64,000 bases of DNA from Actinomycetota bacterium (GTDB taxonomy: Bacteria > Actinomycetota > Thermoleophilia > RBG-16-64-13): positions 62,001-126,000 of the forward strand of contig JADQBG010000013.1 in the NCBI GenBank assembly GCA_016278725.1, read 5' to 3'. Each line of letters begins with the position of its first letter. Within the stretch, counting starts at the first letter, position 1. A model generated the notes under the pieces. That model searched no databases and was not told where the DNA came from. It saw nothing but the letters and a program-made list of their open reading frames with translations. This document shows positions 54,281-60,464 of the stretch, in pieces. The position numbers were made by a program, and so were the translations under genes.

Positions 54281-55417
54281 ATGATAATAGACAGGGAGAA
54301 GATCAAGTCTCTCGCAGCAGCGCAGAGCTCCAACGGCGGTTACTACATGTCCGCCTTTGTCTCCACCAGCAGTCTCGAGAACTGGAGAAAGAACACCCCC
54401 ACCTTCCTCAACAGCGCTTTCACCGAGATGATGAAGGAGCGCGACTTCTCGCACGAAGAGAAGCGCTCGCTGGAAGGAGATCTCGAGCGCATACGCGGTG
54501 TGCTCAGTTATGACATCACGCCGCAGACGGAAGGATTGGCGGTTTTTGCCGATCAGGCGGGCGGCGTGTTCGAGCGCATCGAACTGCCCGTTCGTTTCGA
54601 AGACCGGCTGGTCGTGGGCAAGTCGCCTTATCTGCGCCCCCTGCTGTGCGTGCTCTCCCTGTTCGAGCCGTTCGTGGTTGCTCAGGTAAGCAAGGACGAC
54701 AGTCACCTCTACTTGGTCGATGAGTTGCGCGTGGTGCGCTCGGAGGACTTCACCGGTCCCTATCTGAAGTCCAGCAATCAGGAAACCGGCGAGGTGCCGG
54801 TCAAGGAGTACTACGCCGCGAATCGGCAGGAGTCGCTGATCGACCAGCACCACAAAGAAGTGGCGGCAGCCATCGACAAGATGATCGAGGAGCTGGGCAT
54901 CCACTGGGTGGTCCTCAACGGCAACCATGACATCGTCAGCGGCTTCCGCAGGGCCCTGAGCCAGCGGGTGGCGGCTCGGGTTGTCGGTGAATTCCCGCTG
55001 GACGCCACGGCGAGTATCAAGCAGACCATCTCCCGGGCCCGCGAGGCCATGAAGGCAGGCCGTGCTCACGGCCGTCAGGCATTGGCCGAGCGCATCCGCG
55101 AGTCGCTGGGGGCGGGCGGCCGCGGTGTCGCCGGCTTCAGCGACACCGCCGGAGCGCTCTTCCGGGGCCAGGTGCAGCGTCTGTTGGTCGATCAGGAATA
55201 CCGGCCCAGCGGTTTCCGTTGCGTCGAGTGCGATTTCGTCAGTCTCACGCAGTCGGACCCGTGCCCGGTCTGCGGCGGCGGGATGCTGCCGGTCGAGGAT
55301 GCCGCCGGCGAAGCAATGAGAGTCGCGGTACGGCAGGGCACCTACGTGGAGATCGGGGAGGACATCCCCGCGCTCAAGGAGTTGGGCGAGATCGCCGGTC
55401 TGCTTCGGTACGGCTAG
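54281..55417 (+). CDS. Bacterial release-factor-like (baeRF, eRF1 family) protein with zinc ribbon
   Basis: 378 residues. Domain order as in bacterial archaeo-eukaryotic release factor homologues: N-terminal domain (about 1-130), middle RNase H-like domain with FVVAQVSKDDSHLYLVDELR (about 128-147) and HWVVLNGNHDIVSGFRRAL, and C-terminal L7Ae-like domain with ALFRGQVQRLLVDQEY, plus a zinc ribbon C-x2-C-x10-C-x2-C (CVEC...CPVC). No GGQ motif is visible, so peptidyl-tRNA hydrolysis by the eRF1 mechanism is not expected. Family members are thought to act on ribosomes or tRNA under stress. ATG after AAAGGGG. Confidence 0.7.
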   Translation: MIIDREKIKSLAAAQSSNGGYYMSAFVSTSSLENWRKNTPTFLNSAFTEMMKERDFSHEEKRSLEGDLERIRGVLSYDITPQTEGLAVFADQAGGVFERIELPVRFEDRLVVGKSPYLRPLLCVLSLFEPFVVAQVSKDDSHLYLVDELRVVRSEDFTGPYLKSSNQETGEVPVKEYYAANRQESLIDQHHKEVAAAIDKMIEELGIHWVVLNGNHDIVSGFRRALSQRVAARVVGEFPLDATASIKQTISRAREAMKAGRAHGRQALAERIRESLGAGGRGVAGFSDTAGALFRGQVQRLLVDQEYRPSGFRCVECDFVSLTQSDPCPVCGGGMLPVEDAAGEAMRVAVRQGTYVEIGEDIPALKELGEIAGLLRYG

Positions 55418-55550: not shown

Positions 55551-56399
55551 ATGAGGACGACCGGCGGAACGCCGCCGCGGGTGGTGGTCGAAGTCCCGAG
55601 TCCACAGCAGATGCCGTCGCCGGCCCAAGAGATAACCCCAAAACTCGATCTCTCCCCGCTCGAGGATTTCGCGTGCCCCCAATGCGGAGGGGTCGTGGCG
55701 GTTCCCCGTGGAGTCGATCGCTTTGACTGCTCCTGGTGTGGGTCGCTGCTGGACCCTGGGGGAAGCCTGCGCTTCTATCGCCGCTACGAGGAGGTGCATG
55801 TCTCATCAACTGAGGCCGCACAGCTGTTTCGCGCCTGGCTATCCTCACCGGTCATGCCCCGGGACCTAGCGAGCGAAGTCTCTTTTGATTTGGGTCAACT
55901 CCAGTTCTTTCCCTTCCTCCGCCTTAAGGGCGAAGGGGAGGATCGTTTGCTGCCGATGGCCGAGGTGCCGGTTCCCGAGGTGCTAGATCTGGCGCGGGTT
56001 CCGGCGACCCTCAGGGAAAGCACTGCAGAAAGTGGAGAGATAGACGACTCGCCGCATCCGGAGGTCGACCGCGTTCGTTTGGCAGAAGCTCTGCGGCGGG
56101 CCCAGGCGGAGCCGTACTACGAAGCCGTCTTGGAACAGCGGGGTTACTACGTAGCCGTCTATGACTATCGGGGCCAGCCCTACCGGGCGCTCATCGACGC
56201 GGCAGCCGGACGGGTCTGGTCTTCACGACGCCCCGCCCGGCTGCGCTCGAACCGCGAGATCCCGGTTTCTCTGGGCGCCGCCGCGCTTCTCGCCGCCGAA
56301 GCATTGTTGATCCCCGGCTTTCTCCTTGCCTCGGCGGCGGTTTTGGCCAGCGCATTAGTCCTCTTCTTCGCATTGAGGCCTTGGGTGCGCAATGGCTGA
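55551..56399 (+). CDS. Zinc-ribbon membrane protein, paralogue A
   Basis: 282 residues from ATG 55551 (an ATG at 55611 is possible). Zinc ribbon C42-x2-C-x14-C-x2-C (CPQC...CSWC), then a soluble region with LQFFPFLRL and GYYVAVYDYRGQPYRALIDA, then two C-terminal helices (about 230-275; LGAAALLAAEALLIPGFLLA, VLASALVLFFAL). The ribbon spacing equals that of the next two proteins, so the three are paralogues or share a module. It overlaps the following gene by 8 bases. No named family; the layout resembles the zinc-ribbon partner (YdjG-like) of SPFH proteins. Confidence 0.7.
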   Translation: MRTTGGTPPRVVVEVPSPQQMPSPAQEITPKLDLSPLEDFACPQCGGVVAVPRGVDRFDCSWCGSLLDPGGSLRFYRRYEEVHVSSTEAAQLFRAWLSSPVMPRDLASEVSFDLGQLQFFPFLRLKGEGEDRLLPMAEVPVPEVLDLARVPATLRESTAESGEIDDSPHPEVDRVRLAEALRRAQAEPYYEAVLEQRGYYVAVYDYRGQPYRALIDAAAGRVWSSRRPARLRSNREIPVSLGAAALLAAEALLIPGFLLASAAVLASALVLFFALRPWVRNG

Positions 56400-57372
56400 G
56401 CCCGCTCTCGAGCTCACCTCGATCAGCTGTCCGCGGTGCGCGGGCTCGCTGGAGTCGCATCCCGGCGAACCCGTTCTCGAGTGCCGCCACTGCCGGACTC
56501 CGTACTTGATCGCCGGTTCCGGCGAGGGATTTGAGCGCCGCCACTTCCCGAAGAAGGTGGATCGTCTGAGGGCGGTGGGCGCAGCCACGCGCTGGTTGCT
56601 CGATTGTGCCGACGCTCCGGACGACATCGCGGCGGCTGCCTTCGTGGATGCCAGGCTGCTCTACCTGCCGATATGGGAGGCCCGCGCTTACCTGGTGGGC
56701 TGGGAGTTTGGGCGAAGGTACCGAACCCGGCGGGAATCCCGGCGCGTGGGCGAATCCGAGGTGATCGACCTCGAACTCGTGGACGAGACGGTCGAGGCGG
56801 GATTCTTCGACGAGCGCCGCCAATACCGAGAGGCGGTGGACCTGCGGGCGCTGGGCGTTGGGCGGCCGCACATCACGGGCAGAGATTTCAGTCACCCATT
56901 CCTGCCGGGGGAAATGGAGGACGAAGCCGCCGTTCTCGAACCTCAGGGTGACCGCGAGCGGCTGCAGCAGGATGCTCGGTCTTCGTTCCTGCAACCACCC
57001 ACGGGGACTCTGCAGCGTGACGGCCGCTACTTCCTGATGCGGGAGTCGCTCGCGCTGCTCTATTACCCTTTGTGGCATCTGCGTTACGAGTACCGGGAAC
57101 GCCTCTACGACGTGATGGTCGACGGTCGGAACGCCGTGATCCACGCGGCGCACGCGCCGGCGGATAACAATAGACGCCTCGCCTGGCTGCTCGCTTCCTA
57201 CGCCGGCCTCGCGCTTCTGTTGGCCCTGGCCGTGTCGCTTTGGCGGAGCGGCGGAATCCTGGCACCAGTGGGTCCCTACCTCGGGCTGCTGGCCTTGGTC
57301 CTGGGGGCGGGTGTCCACTGGCGCTTCGAGTTGCTGGGGGAGGTGGAGCACCATGAGCCCTTCGCCTCCTGA
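56392..57372 (+). CDS. Zinc-ribbon membrane protein, paralogue B
   Basis: 326 residues. Zinc ribbon C13-x2-C-x14-C-x2-C (CPRC...CRHC), then two copies of an aromatic-Pro motif (LLYLPIWEARAYLVGWEFG and LLYYPLWHLRYEYRERLYD) and two C-terminal helices (LAWLLASYAGLALLLALAV; LGLLALVLGAGVHW). The second copy continues into VMVDGRNAVIHA, parallel to VAVYDYRGQPYRALIDA of paralogue A. Translationally coupled with both neighbours: it starts 8 bases inside A, and C starts 20 bases inside its end. Confidence 0.7.
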   Translation: MAEPALELTSISCPRCAGSLESHPGEPVLECRHCRTPYLIAGSGEGFERRHFPKKVDRLRAVGAATRWLLDCADAPDDIAAAAFVDARLLYLPIWEARAYLVGWEFGRRYRTRRESRRVGESEVIDLELVDETVEAGFFDERRQYREAVDLRALGVGRPHITGRDFSHPFLPGEMEDEAAVLEPQGDRERLQQDARSSFLQPPTGTLQRDGRYFLMRESLALLYYPLWHLRYEYRERLYDVMVDGRNAVIHAAHAPADNNRRLAWLLASYAGLALLLALAVSLWRSGGILAPVGPYLGLLALVLGAGVHWRFELLGEVEHHEPFAS

Positions 57373-58090
57373 GCACGCCGCCCGGCCTTTGCGGAGACCG
57401 CGGGTGGCGCCGCAACTGCTCGCCTTGGTTTGTCCCGGCTGCGCCTCCGCGCTCACGCTCTCTCCGGGGGCGGCCGCCTACCCCTGTCGGTTGTGCGGAC
57501 GCGTCTGCGAACCTGACGGCCACAGCCTTCGCTCGGTTCCCGTCGGTTACGTCGACCCCACCAGTGCGATCGCACCGCGAGGGCAGGTCCAACTGCTGCC
57601 CGTGTGGCGGTTCGGGGCGCGCGTGGACGTGCGGAGCAAGCGGGCGGCCCATCCCGCTGCTCCCGGCTACGTCTGGGAGCAGGTCAGGAAGAGCGCGGCC
57701 CGGGCCGGCGGTCGTTCGGACCTGCCCTCGATTTTCGTCCCGGCGTTCGCGCTCGAAAGAACCGTAATCGCCCGGCTTGGCCTGAGGCTGCTCCGGGCCC
57801 AACCCGCGCTACCTCGGCCCGAGCCCGCATTCTCTTCCCAGGGGGGACCCTCGCAGGGCGGAGGCGACCTTCTTCCCATCTTGCTGTCCGAGTCCGATGC
57901 CCGCATCGCCGCGCACTTCGTCTATCTCGCGCTCGAATCCGACGCGACCCCCGATTTGCGGGCGATTGACTACGAACTGGACCTGCAAGACGGAAGCTTG
58001 CTGGTCATACCGGCCGATTATGACCGGCGATTCGTCCATGACGCCAATTGGCGTCTGCTCCTCAGGGAGTTCGATGGTTTGCTTGCCTGA
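57353..58090 (+). CDS. Zinc-ribbon protein, paralogue C (no membrane helix)
   Basis: 245 residues. Zinc ribbon C27-x2-C-x14-C-x2-C (CPGC...CRLC) and the motifs VQLLPVWRFGARVDV and SIFVPAFALERTVIARLGL, matching the Pro-aromatic motifs of paralogues A and B, but no transmembrane helix. A Pro/Gln/Gly-rich linker (about 158-177) precedes a C-terminal part with LDLQDGSLLVIPADYDRRFV. ATG at 57353 after GGAGGTGGAG, within the end of paralogue B. Confidence 0.7.
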   Translation: MSPSPPEHAARPLRRPRVAPQLLALVCPGCASALTLSPGAAAYPCRLCGRVCEPDGHSLRSVPVGYVDPTSAIAPRGQVQLLPVWRFGARVDVRSKRAAHPAAPGYVWEQVRKSAARAGGRSDLPSIFVPAFALERTVIARLGLRLLRAQPALPRPEPAFSSQGGPSQGGGDLLPILLSESDARIAAHFVYLALESDATPDLRAIDYELDLQDGSLLVIPADYDRRFVHDANWRLLLREFDGLLA

Positions 58091-58131: not shown

Positions 58132-58647
58132 GTGAACGACGTGCCTGAGCGCATAGACGAGAGCCGCGGCGCATTCGAGAAGGCCGCGGAGAAGCTGCCC
58201 GGTTATCGGGGCTACAAGGAGCGGGAACTGCGCCGCGAAGCGGACAGGCTCCAGCGGGATTACGTGGCCGAGAGGCTCGAGGCGGCCCGGCGCAAGATGG
58301 AGGAACTGGAATTGGCCTTGAGCCGAGCCGGCGACCTGGCGTTACTCGGGCAGATAGACAACACGGCGCGTAAGCTGCGCACGGTCACCGATCGCTTCCG
58401 CTTTGCCGACTATGGTTATGCCGGGCTGTTTTCGGCGGTGAAGGTCGACCAGAAGGTCCTCGAAAGGTTGTATGAGCATGACGTCCACCAGCAGGCCCAG
58501 GCCCGCGGCATCGAGGAATTGACCGAGGCGCTCGGGGTGGAAAGCCCGAGCCTGAGAAGCGACGTGCAGTTGCTCGACGAGCGCGTCGAAGCCCTGGACG
58601 AGTCCTTCGTCGAACGCGAGCATCTGATCACCGGAGTCGGGAGGTAG
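58132..58647 (+). CDS. Coiled-coil protein of the SPFH operon
   Basis: 171 residues. Highly charged helices with coiled-coil rhythm (LRREADRLQRDYVAERLEAA, RKMEELELALSRAG), a short middle segment with FRFADYGYAGLFSAVKVD, and a second helical part. GTG at 58132 is chosen because AAGGAGG lies 4 bases upstream; the ATG at 58090 has none. It ends 2 bases before the SPFH gene. Position and helical character recall PspA-type partners of SPFH proteins, but the length (PspA is about 220) and sequence do not match PspA. Confidence 0.6.
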   Translation: MNDVPERIDESRGAFEKAAEKLPGYRGYKERELRREADRLQRDYVAERLEAARRKMEELELALSRAGDLALLGQIDNTARKLRTVTDRFRFADYGYAGLFSAVKVDQKVLERLYEHDVHQQAQARGIEELTEALGVESPSLRSDVQLLDERVEALDESFVEREHLITGVGR

Positions 58648-58649
58648 AT

Positions 58650-59795
58650 ATGGCCCTCATGCAGATCATCGAGTACATGGACGAGGGGCCCGATGAAATG
58701 ATGCATCGGATCCCCAGCGAAGGTTCGGGCGAGTTCCGGCTCGGCTCTCAACTCGTGGTTCAGGAACCTCAATGGGCGGTCTTCTTCCGCGACGGCAAAG
58801 CTCTGGACGTATTCGGCCCCGGCCGCCACGTGCTGACCACGCAGAACATCCCCCTGCTCACGGCACTCCTGACTCATCCGCTTTACGGCGACACTCCTTT
58901 CCGCTCATCCGTCTGCTTTGTCAGCAGGCGGGTCTTCACCGATTTGAAATGGGGCACCTCGGAGCCGATTCTCTTCCGCGATTCCGAATTCGCCATGATC
59001 CGCCTGCGCGCATTCGGCATTTACACACTCCAGGTGACGGACCCCAAGTTGTTGGTGATGAAGCTGGCGGGGACGCGCGCCATTTATCGCAACGAGCAGA
59101 TCGAGGACTTCGCCCGAGGCATAATAGTGGGCCGGTTGGCCGACCTCCTCGGCGAGAATCTCGACTCGGTCCTCGATCTGCCCAGATACTTCGACGAGTT
59201 GGCGGCCGCGCTCAAGGCCCGGGTCAAGGATGACTTCTACCAGTACGGGCTGTCGCTGATCGACTTCGTAGTGAACGCCATCACCCCGCCCCAGGAAGTG
59301 CAGAAACGGATCGATGAGCGCAGCGGCATGGAGGCGGTGGGGGGCATGGAGCGCTACTTCCGCTTCAAGACCGCGGCCGCCATCGGCGACCTGGCAAAGT
59401 CCGGAGGGGATGGCACCGGGGGCGGCGTTGCGGATGGCGGACTCGCCGGGACGGCGGCTGCCGGCCTCGGGCTTGGCGCGGGTGCAGGGCTGGGATTCAT
59501 GATTCCGGGCATGATGCAGCAGGCCATGGCGGAGGGCCATCAGCCCAGGATGAGGTGTCCGGGTTGTCAGGCCGATGTCGTCTTCGGCAGTCGCTTCTGC
59601 CCCCAGTGTGGGACCAATCTGGCCGCCGGAGCCGCCTGCCCCCAATGTGGGGCTCAGGTCGCCGCCGGATCCAAGTTCTGCATGAATTGCGGTCAGCGGC
59701 TGGGCGCTGAAGCACCGGCAGCGGCGCCAGAGGCCGCAGCGGCGGCGGAAGCGGCGGAGCGGAAGCCGGAAGCCGGCCCGGGACAGGGAGAGTAA
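58650..59795 (+). CDS. SPFH-domain protein with C-terminal double zinc ribbon (YdjI-like)
   Basis: 381 residues. N-terminal EYMDEGPDEMMHRIPSEGSG, then SPFH/band 7 domain with QLVVQEPQWAVFFRDGKALD, FGPGRHVLTTQNIPLL and YQYGLSLIDFVVNAITPPQE, then a Gly/Ala-rich hydrophobic stretch (about 255-285), then two zinc ribbons (CPGC...CPQC and CPQC...CMNC) and an Ala/Glu-rich tail. This is the virion-core-like (YdjI) SPFH architecture, which in Bacillus works with YdjG/YdjH and PspA at the membrane. Last gene of a five-gene run with overlaps or 2-41 base gaps. Confidence 0.82.
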   Translation: MALMQIIEYMDEGPDEMMHRIPSEGSGEFRLGSQLVVQEPQWAVFFRDGKALDVFGPGRHVLTTQNIPLLTALLTHPLYGDTPFRSSVCFVSRRVFTDLKWGTSEPILFRDSEFAMIRLRAFGIYTLQVTDPKLLVMKLAGTRAIYRNEQIEDFARGIIVGRLADLLGENLDSVLDLPRYFDELAAALKARVKDDFYQYGLSLIDFVVNAITPPQEVQKRIDERSGMEAVGGMERYFRFKTAAAIGDLAKSGGDGTGGGVADGGLAGTAAAGLGLGAGAGLGFMIPGMMQQAMAEGHQPRMRCPGCQADVVFGSRFCPQCGTNLAAGAACPQCGAQVAAGSKFCMNCGQRLGAEAPAAAPEAAAAAEAAERKPEAGPGQGE

Positions 59796-59832: not shown

Positions 59833-59857
59833 AGGGCGTCCCCGGCGGGGGCGCCCT
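59833..59857. terminator. GC-rich hairpin between convergent genes
   Basis: 11-bp stem (59833-59843 with 59847-59857, one G-T pair, 3-base loop), overlapping the minus-strand stop of the sigma gene. No T run is present, so termination would be inefficient or need a factor. Confidence 0.4.
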
Positions 59858-60464
59858 AGGTGAATATGATTTCCTCGGTGAGCAACTGGTGCAGGTTATC
59901 GAGGGCGCGAAACTGGAGGGCCTTCACCGCACCCTCGGTCTTACCCATGAGCAGTGCGGTCTCGAGGATCGAAAGCTCGAAGAAGAAACGGCACTCTATG
60001 ACCTCGCGCTGGTCCGTGGTCAGCTCCTTCAGGGCTTCCCTCAGCGTGCGCTTCCGCTCCTCGAGCAGAACCTGCGCCTCTGGATCGCTGGTGGGATCGT
60101 TCATCGGGAGCGCCGCGGCCTCGGCCTCGTCATCCACCGGCAGCCGCCGCTTGCGGTAGTAGTCGATGATGCAGTTCTTCGCGATGGTGTAGAGCCAGGT
60201 GGAGAACTGTGCCGGCTTGGGCCGGTAGCGGTCGATGGCGCCCAAGGCCTTCTCGAAGACGGTGTTGGCCAGGTCCTCGGCATCCTCGCGATTGGAAATG
60301 CGGAAGTTGATGAAGGTGAAGACCTGCGAGAAGTAGAGGCGATAGAGATAGGTGAAAGCGTCGGGATCGTTCCGCGAGGCCTTGACTGCAATCAGCTTGA
60401 TGGCGGTTTCGGTGACCTCGCGGGGCTCGGGTTCGACGCAGATTGTGGCGGCTGACATCGACAT
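59856..60464 (-). CDS. ECF-type sigma-70 family RNA polymerase sigma factor
   Basis: 202 residues. Region 2 (YLYRLYFSQVFTFINFRISN, then EDAEDLANTVFEKALGAIDR, then FSTWLYTIAKNCIIDYYRKR) and region 4 (LTTDQREVIECRFFFELSIL, then ETALLMGKTEGAVKALQFRA) are complete. No anti-sigma gene is adjacent; the downstream neighbour on the opposite strand is the SPFH operon, upstream is the VanW-family gene. Two ATGs (60464, 60458); neither has a strong ribosome-binding site. Confidence 0.9.
   Translation of the reverse strand: MSMSAATICVEPEPREVTETAIKLIAVKASRNDPDAFTYLYRLYFSQVFTFINFRISNREDAEDLANTVFEKALGAIDRYRPKPAQFSTWLYTIAKNCIIDYYRKRRLPVDDEAEAAALPMNDPTSDPEAQVLLEERKRTLREALKELTTDQREVIECRFFFELSILETALLMGKTEGAVKALQFRALDNLHQLLTEEIIFT

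Follow-up and report, generated by a model that had tools for sequence, protein, structure and literature searches.

A conserved SPFH gene block in one family of Actinomycetota carries paralogous zinc-ribbon membrane proteins of putative YdjG type and a third, soluble ribbon protein

The DNA analysed in this study is a stretch of 64,000 nucleotides from an Actinomycetota bacterium, referred to here in its full length as the window. It contains a block of genes on the forward strand, named R, A, B, C, K and S, which is followed by a convergent sigma factor gene. The genes and their features are as follows.

54281..55417, forward strand: R, 378 aa, baeRF / ribosome-hibernation-factor-like, with a C-terminal x10 zinc ribbon; first gene in the conserved block
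55551..56399, forward strand: A, 282 aa; zinc ribbon, soluble domain and predicted C-terminal TM hairpin
55674..55739, forward strand: ribbon C-x2-C-x14-C-x2-C of A (residues 42-63); cysteines invariant in 10 relatives
56256..56390, forward strand: hydrophobic hairpin of A (residues 236-280), from hydropathy
56392..57372, forward strand: B, 326 aa; zinc ribbon, beta-rich YdjG-like domain and predicted C-terminal TM hairpin
56428..56493, forward strand: ribbon C-x2-C-x14-C-x2-C of B (residues 13-34); kept in relatives with a sequenced N-terminus
57169..57324, forward strand: transmembrane helices of B (residues 260-285 and 293-311), from model helices and hydropathy
57353..58090, forward strand: C, 245 aa, ATG start; zinc ribbon and soluble alpha/beta protein, no TM
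57431..57496, forward strand: ribbon C-x2-C-x14-C-x2-C of C (residues 27-48); cysteines invariant in 15 relatives
58132..58647, forward strand: K, 171 aa, helical/coiled-coil partner; GTG start after GGAGG
58650..59795, forward strand: S, SPFH/Band_7_1 protein with a C-terminal double zinc ribbon and no evident TM
59856..60464, reverse strand: sigma-70-family (ECF-like) sigma factor, convergent with the block; Sigma70_r2 E=3.8e-17

The start of C is taken here as the ATG at 57353; the listing of open reading frames gives an upstream GTG at 57311. An earlier reading of the letters alone (the sequence-only reading) had reported that the genes overlap by 8 and 20 bases, and both values were reproduced, 8 nt for A/B and 20 nt for B/C. 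The same reading had placed a C-x2-C-x14-C-x2-C ribbon near the N-terminus of A, B and C, and our analysis found exactly one in each protein, intact in all relatives of the three whose N-terminus is present in the sequence. When the 64 kb window was translated in six frames and open reading frames of 60 aa or longer were searched, the x14 spacing was found three times, once per gene; of the other spacings from x8 to x21 in the same frames, x10 also occurs three times and all others zero times or once. All the proline-aromatic motifs quoted earlier (FFPFLRL, LYLPIWEA, LYYPLWHL, LLPVWRF and FVPAFAL) were found, with core residues invariant or nearly so in 10-16 relatives: F122/L123/R124 are nearly invariant in A, while P93/I94/W95 and P226 in B and W85, P130 and F132 in C are invariant. 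Analysis of hydropathy for A, and of hydropathy and the structural model for B, agreed with the reported two C-terminal hydrophobic helices in each, and none is predicted in C. A promoter and terminator scan gave no signal above shuffles. The feature is considered real because its genes are conserved throughout a bacterial family.

Relatives of B were identified in 16 of the 61 genomes searched, all within the window's own family, on contigs of MAGs labelled Thermoleophilia, Gaiellales or Actinomycetota. The order R-A-B-C-K-S is shared by the loci of the relatives, barring fusions and contig ends, and R stands at the head of the block in nearly all of them. A search for the trio upstream of SPFH genes, as proposed in the sequence-only reading, showed that the block precedes an SPFH gene throughout this family. 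Of the 17 family genomes that have the locus, 15 encode a DUF2207 membrane protein and a small protein with a zinc ribbon downstream of S. The same pair follows K-S in three genomes of other families and is therefore part of a wider module. It is present in most of the family but absent from the window's genus, where no DUF2207 was found in either of the two genomes searched. The small ribbon protein after DUF2207 (L074:13434-14042) is strongly conserved, at 64-85% identity, and a stretch between its TM part and its ribbon seems helix-turn-helix-like. Two further families of the phylum have the core K-S-DUF2207-small ribbon but no A, B or C beside it, and a full-length profile of C gave no match outside the family among 297 genomes of the phylum. 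The trio, a family-specific addition as far as searched, was therefore added in front of an older K-S-DUF2207 module.

Profile comparisons of the three proteins were performed with the ribbons removed and were scored against shuffled profiles (20 shuffles; those of C were repeated with 100). Comparison of A with B gave a score of 47.7, the best of 20 shuffles reaching 21.7. With a score so far above the shuffles, A and B are, on profile evidence, true paralogs beyond the ribbon. The link is further supported by the fusion of an A ribbon to B in one clade.

The relationship of these proteins to a known system came from a protein with two ribbons whose motifs follow the pattern seen in B (L091); in a genome of the same phylum it is encoded beside a more distantly related SPFH gene. 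Homologs of this protein occur on plasmids of Tsukamurella, Vibrio, Comamonas, Paracoccus and Enterococcus, in every case directly adjoining an SPFH gene, and the Enterococcus gene order, SPFH-ribbon protein-TPM, represents the gene content of ydjI/ydjG/ydjH. We infer from architecture and from this gene order that the comparison family is YdjG; its naming here as YdjG-like rests on these two features and not on the sequence of Bacillus subtilis YdjG. The published architecture of YdjG comprises two zinc ribbons, a domain related to YpeB and a TM segment (PMC11237479). Homologs of YdjG elsewhere are annotated as 'TFIIB-type zinc ribbon-containing protein' beside SPFH genes. Profile comparison aligned B with the YdjG-like family from the ribbon to the TM boundary (98.4%). 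Without ribbons the score was 62.6 against 22.6 for the best shuffle, over almost the whole soluble part, and a repeat with 14 sequences gave 63.6 versus 21.1 for shuffled profiles. Common to both are the x14 ribbon spacing, a membrane-proximal proline-aromatic strand and an '(N/D)GxxGxV' turn before the TM segment. By profile comparison B is a distant YdjG-type protein, and the earlier statement that the family has no known name was wrong for B. A matched the YdjG-like family weakly and in the C-terminal unit only (28.2-28.5 versus about 19 shuffled). Nearly all YdjG-like ribbons examined have the x14 spacing, with x15 in one protein and no full motif in the first ribbon of L099. For all three proteins of the trio, the best-scoring counterpart of the ribbon is YdjG-like ribbon 1. 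The best explanation of these profile results is that B is probably the copy closest to the YdjG type and A a divergent, shortened duplicate.

Several differences from the YdjG system were observed. The YdjG family carries two N-terminal ribbons, whereas A and B carry one each, two being found only in the fusion of a derived clade; YdjG-like proteins have one C-terminal TM segment, whereas A and B have a predicted two-helix hairpin and C none. Both systems lie near an SPFH gene whose product ends in zinc ribbon sequence. Here C and K separate B from S, which lies downstream, and the ribbon protein is duplicated as A and B with C and K added. The B. subtilis system includes PspA and TPM, whereas the block contains neither gene. 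A PspA identity for K was rejected, as Pfam gave no PspA_IM30 match; one PspA occurs in the G000 genome, on another contig, and none in over half of the family genomes searched. For the TPM-domain protein YdjH, no PF04536 match was found in the G000 genome. The trio is ordinary in kind and new in its expanded form.

Unlike A and B, C cannot be placed from its non-ribbon part by pairwise comparison. Without ribbons, A versus C scored 15.7 and B versus C 18.0, values equalled by 15 and 12 of 100 shuffles, respectively. The tandem duplication proposed in the sequence-only reading thus stands for A and B and not for C, whose firm ribbon is joined to a borderline match elsewhere, so that a triple duplication is not shown. 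A tentative reading, to which we give somewhat less than an even chance, is that C is a third paralog with a non-ribbon part diverged past recognition and not a separate protein that shares the ribbon. The ribbon of C aligns with the ribbons of A, B and the YdjG-like family with probabilities of 89-97%. Outside the ribbon, the best alignment of C lies on its LLPVWRF strand whichever of the three profiles (A, B or YdjG-like) it is compared with. The score against the YdjG-like one is borderline, being reached by 0-2 of 100 shuffles; the shared position and this score make distant common descent possible. Against the reading stand the shuffle-level scores with A and B alone, a predicted order of helices and strands unlike that of B, and the lack of TM segments in C.

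Analysis of the other genes revealed matches of R to Pfam baeRF_family10 (E=5.6e-17) and to the NCBIfam MSMEG_1130-type hibernation factor (E=2e-18), the latter far below the model's cut-off. The position of R at the head of the block links translation arrest with the SPFH operon. All 15 of 15 members of the K group matched NCBIfam LIMLP_15305 (NF047596) weakly, the best at 6.8e-12 and far below the curated cut-off. S is a strong member of PF13421 (E=4.9e-55) with a DZR match (E=3.9e-10), and like YdjI (Band_7_1, PF13421) it has C-terminal zinc ribbons and no evident TM. Relatives of S accompanied by K are at least 55% identical to S in three families, whereas identity to S is about 30-35% for SPFH proteins encoded beside YdjG-like genes in other parts of the phylum. 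The sigma factor is found near the block in six relatives (54-79% identity). The pspA-ydjGHI operon of B. subtilis is controlled by sigma-W, and by analogy the convergent sigma factor may therefore be a regulator of the block.

Gene states within the family were placed on a tree of S and K. Separate A and B genes occur across the deeper lineages. In one supported clade (98/92), the ribbon is all that is left of A and is joined to the N-terminal end of B in G010, G015, G016 and G017 (loci L027, L028, L032 and L033, L032 being that of G010), the clade members truncated by contig edges being unscorable. Survival of an ancestral YdjG double ribbon in this clade was rejected because separate A and B lie outside it on the tree and because the ribbons of A, B and C all resemble YdjG-like ribbon 1 most. 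The fused B of G010 has lost the TM hairpin and kept the tail, and is the only relative of B without TM helices. Both A and B have been lost from G002, where C begins some 20 bases downstream of R (L074:8980-9780). These two losses indicate that the anchor is not indispensable. DUF2207 is kept in both G002 and G010, and the two genomes of the window's genus without DUF2207 keep A and B with TM segments. At least one candidate membrane partner, A/B or DUF2207, always remains, an observation on small numbers and not a test. The C protein of G002 has an extra N-terminal CxxC overlapping its own ribbon, possibly a remnant of A.

Searches for solved folds found no significant PDB structure match for B or C, and PDB sequence matches were mainly to ribbons or zinc fingers and otherwise weak. 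Fold comparison of the B model gave only two significant matches, both to giant-virus proteins annotated as 'DnaJ-like subfamily C member 3' (E about 4e-6, TM-score about 0.3); they suggest that J-domain proteins of giant viruses may contain a YdjG-like domain. A search for viral relatives of B found none, and a plasmid search with B itself as query gave no match. A phage origin was rejected, as the viral search with B was negative and PHROG gave no match for any of A, B, C and K; anti-phage defence was rejected on marginal PADLOC matches.

Overall, our analysis favours, at a probability of about 0.5, the reading that A and B are YdjG-type membrane adaptors that tether the soluble SPFH/coiled-coil pair S/K, with C as an accessory part. 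The role is proposed because of the homology and gene context shared with the YdjG-like family. In B. subtilis, where YdjI itself lacks a TM, loss of YdjG or YdjH abolishes membrane foci of YdjI and PspA (PMC8581546); A and B would do for S and K what YdjG and YdjH do for YdjI/PspA. The retention of either A/B with TM segments or DUF2207 also speaks for this reading. Against it weigh the losses in G002 and G010, the absence of PspA from the block and of TPM from the genome, the failure of C to show established homology beyond its ribbon, and the lack of a solved fold matching the B model. The ribbon and soluble domain of A and B, beta-rich in the B model, would be cytoplasmic with the hairpin in the membrane, and A, B and C together with K would hold soluble S at the cytoplasmic membrane. 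The ribbons would probably serve protein-protein contacts, and C would act as a soluble ribbon protein of the operon.

An unlikely alternative reading makes the ribbon proteins an assembly or quality-control module of chaperone-like kind, with clients held by ribbons and beta domains and delivered to the SPFH ring. It draws on the argument that band-7, TPM and CesT/Tir partners of PspA aid chaperone-like assembly of membrane-linked complexes (PMC11237479) and on the giant-virus fold matches of B; however, the TM-score of these matches is low, the viral names are annotation only, and no client or chaperone motif was found. Less likely again is a nucleic-acid role, in which TFIIB-like ribbons would make A and B membrane-tethered regulators of transcription or translation, possibly with R and the sigma factor. 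The ribbon family of YdjG is known for DNA binding (PMC9239133), members of the C family match the HVO_2753 Zn pocket and ribosome-associated ribbon proteins, and R and the sigma factor are conserved neighbours. These matches are confined to the ribbon, though, such ribbons are very common in protein-contact roles, and S itself carries ribbons. An extension of the adaptor reading that we consider improbable has A, B and C as an obligate three-subunit adaptor that docks R and the SPFH/coiled-coil scaffold at the membrane, where A-B and DUF2207 would be anchors able to replace each other; if true, it would represent a membrane-stress platform coupled to translation arrest.

The adaptor reading bears on a poorly understood topic, namely how soluble YdjI-type SPFH proteins are delivered to the membrane and what the ribbon proteins contribute. 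The unnamed proteins A and B gain a place in a known family. Within the family the adaptor is found duplicated, fused, without membrane helices or lost, each with or without DUF2207, and these natural experiments make the question of the anchor directly testable.
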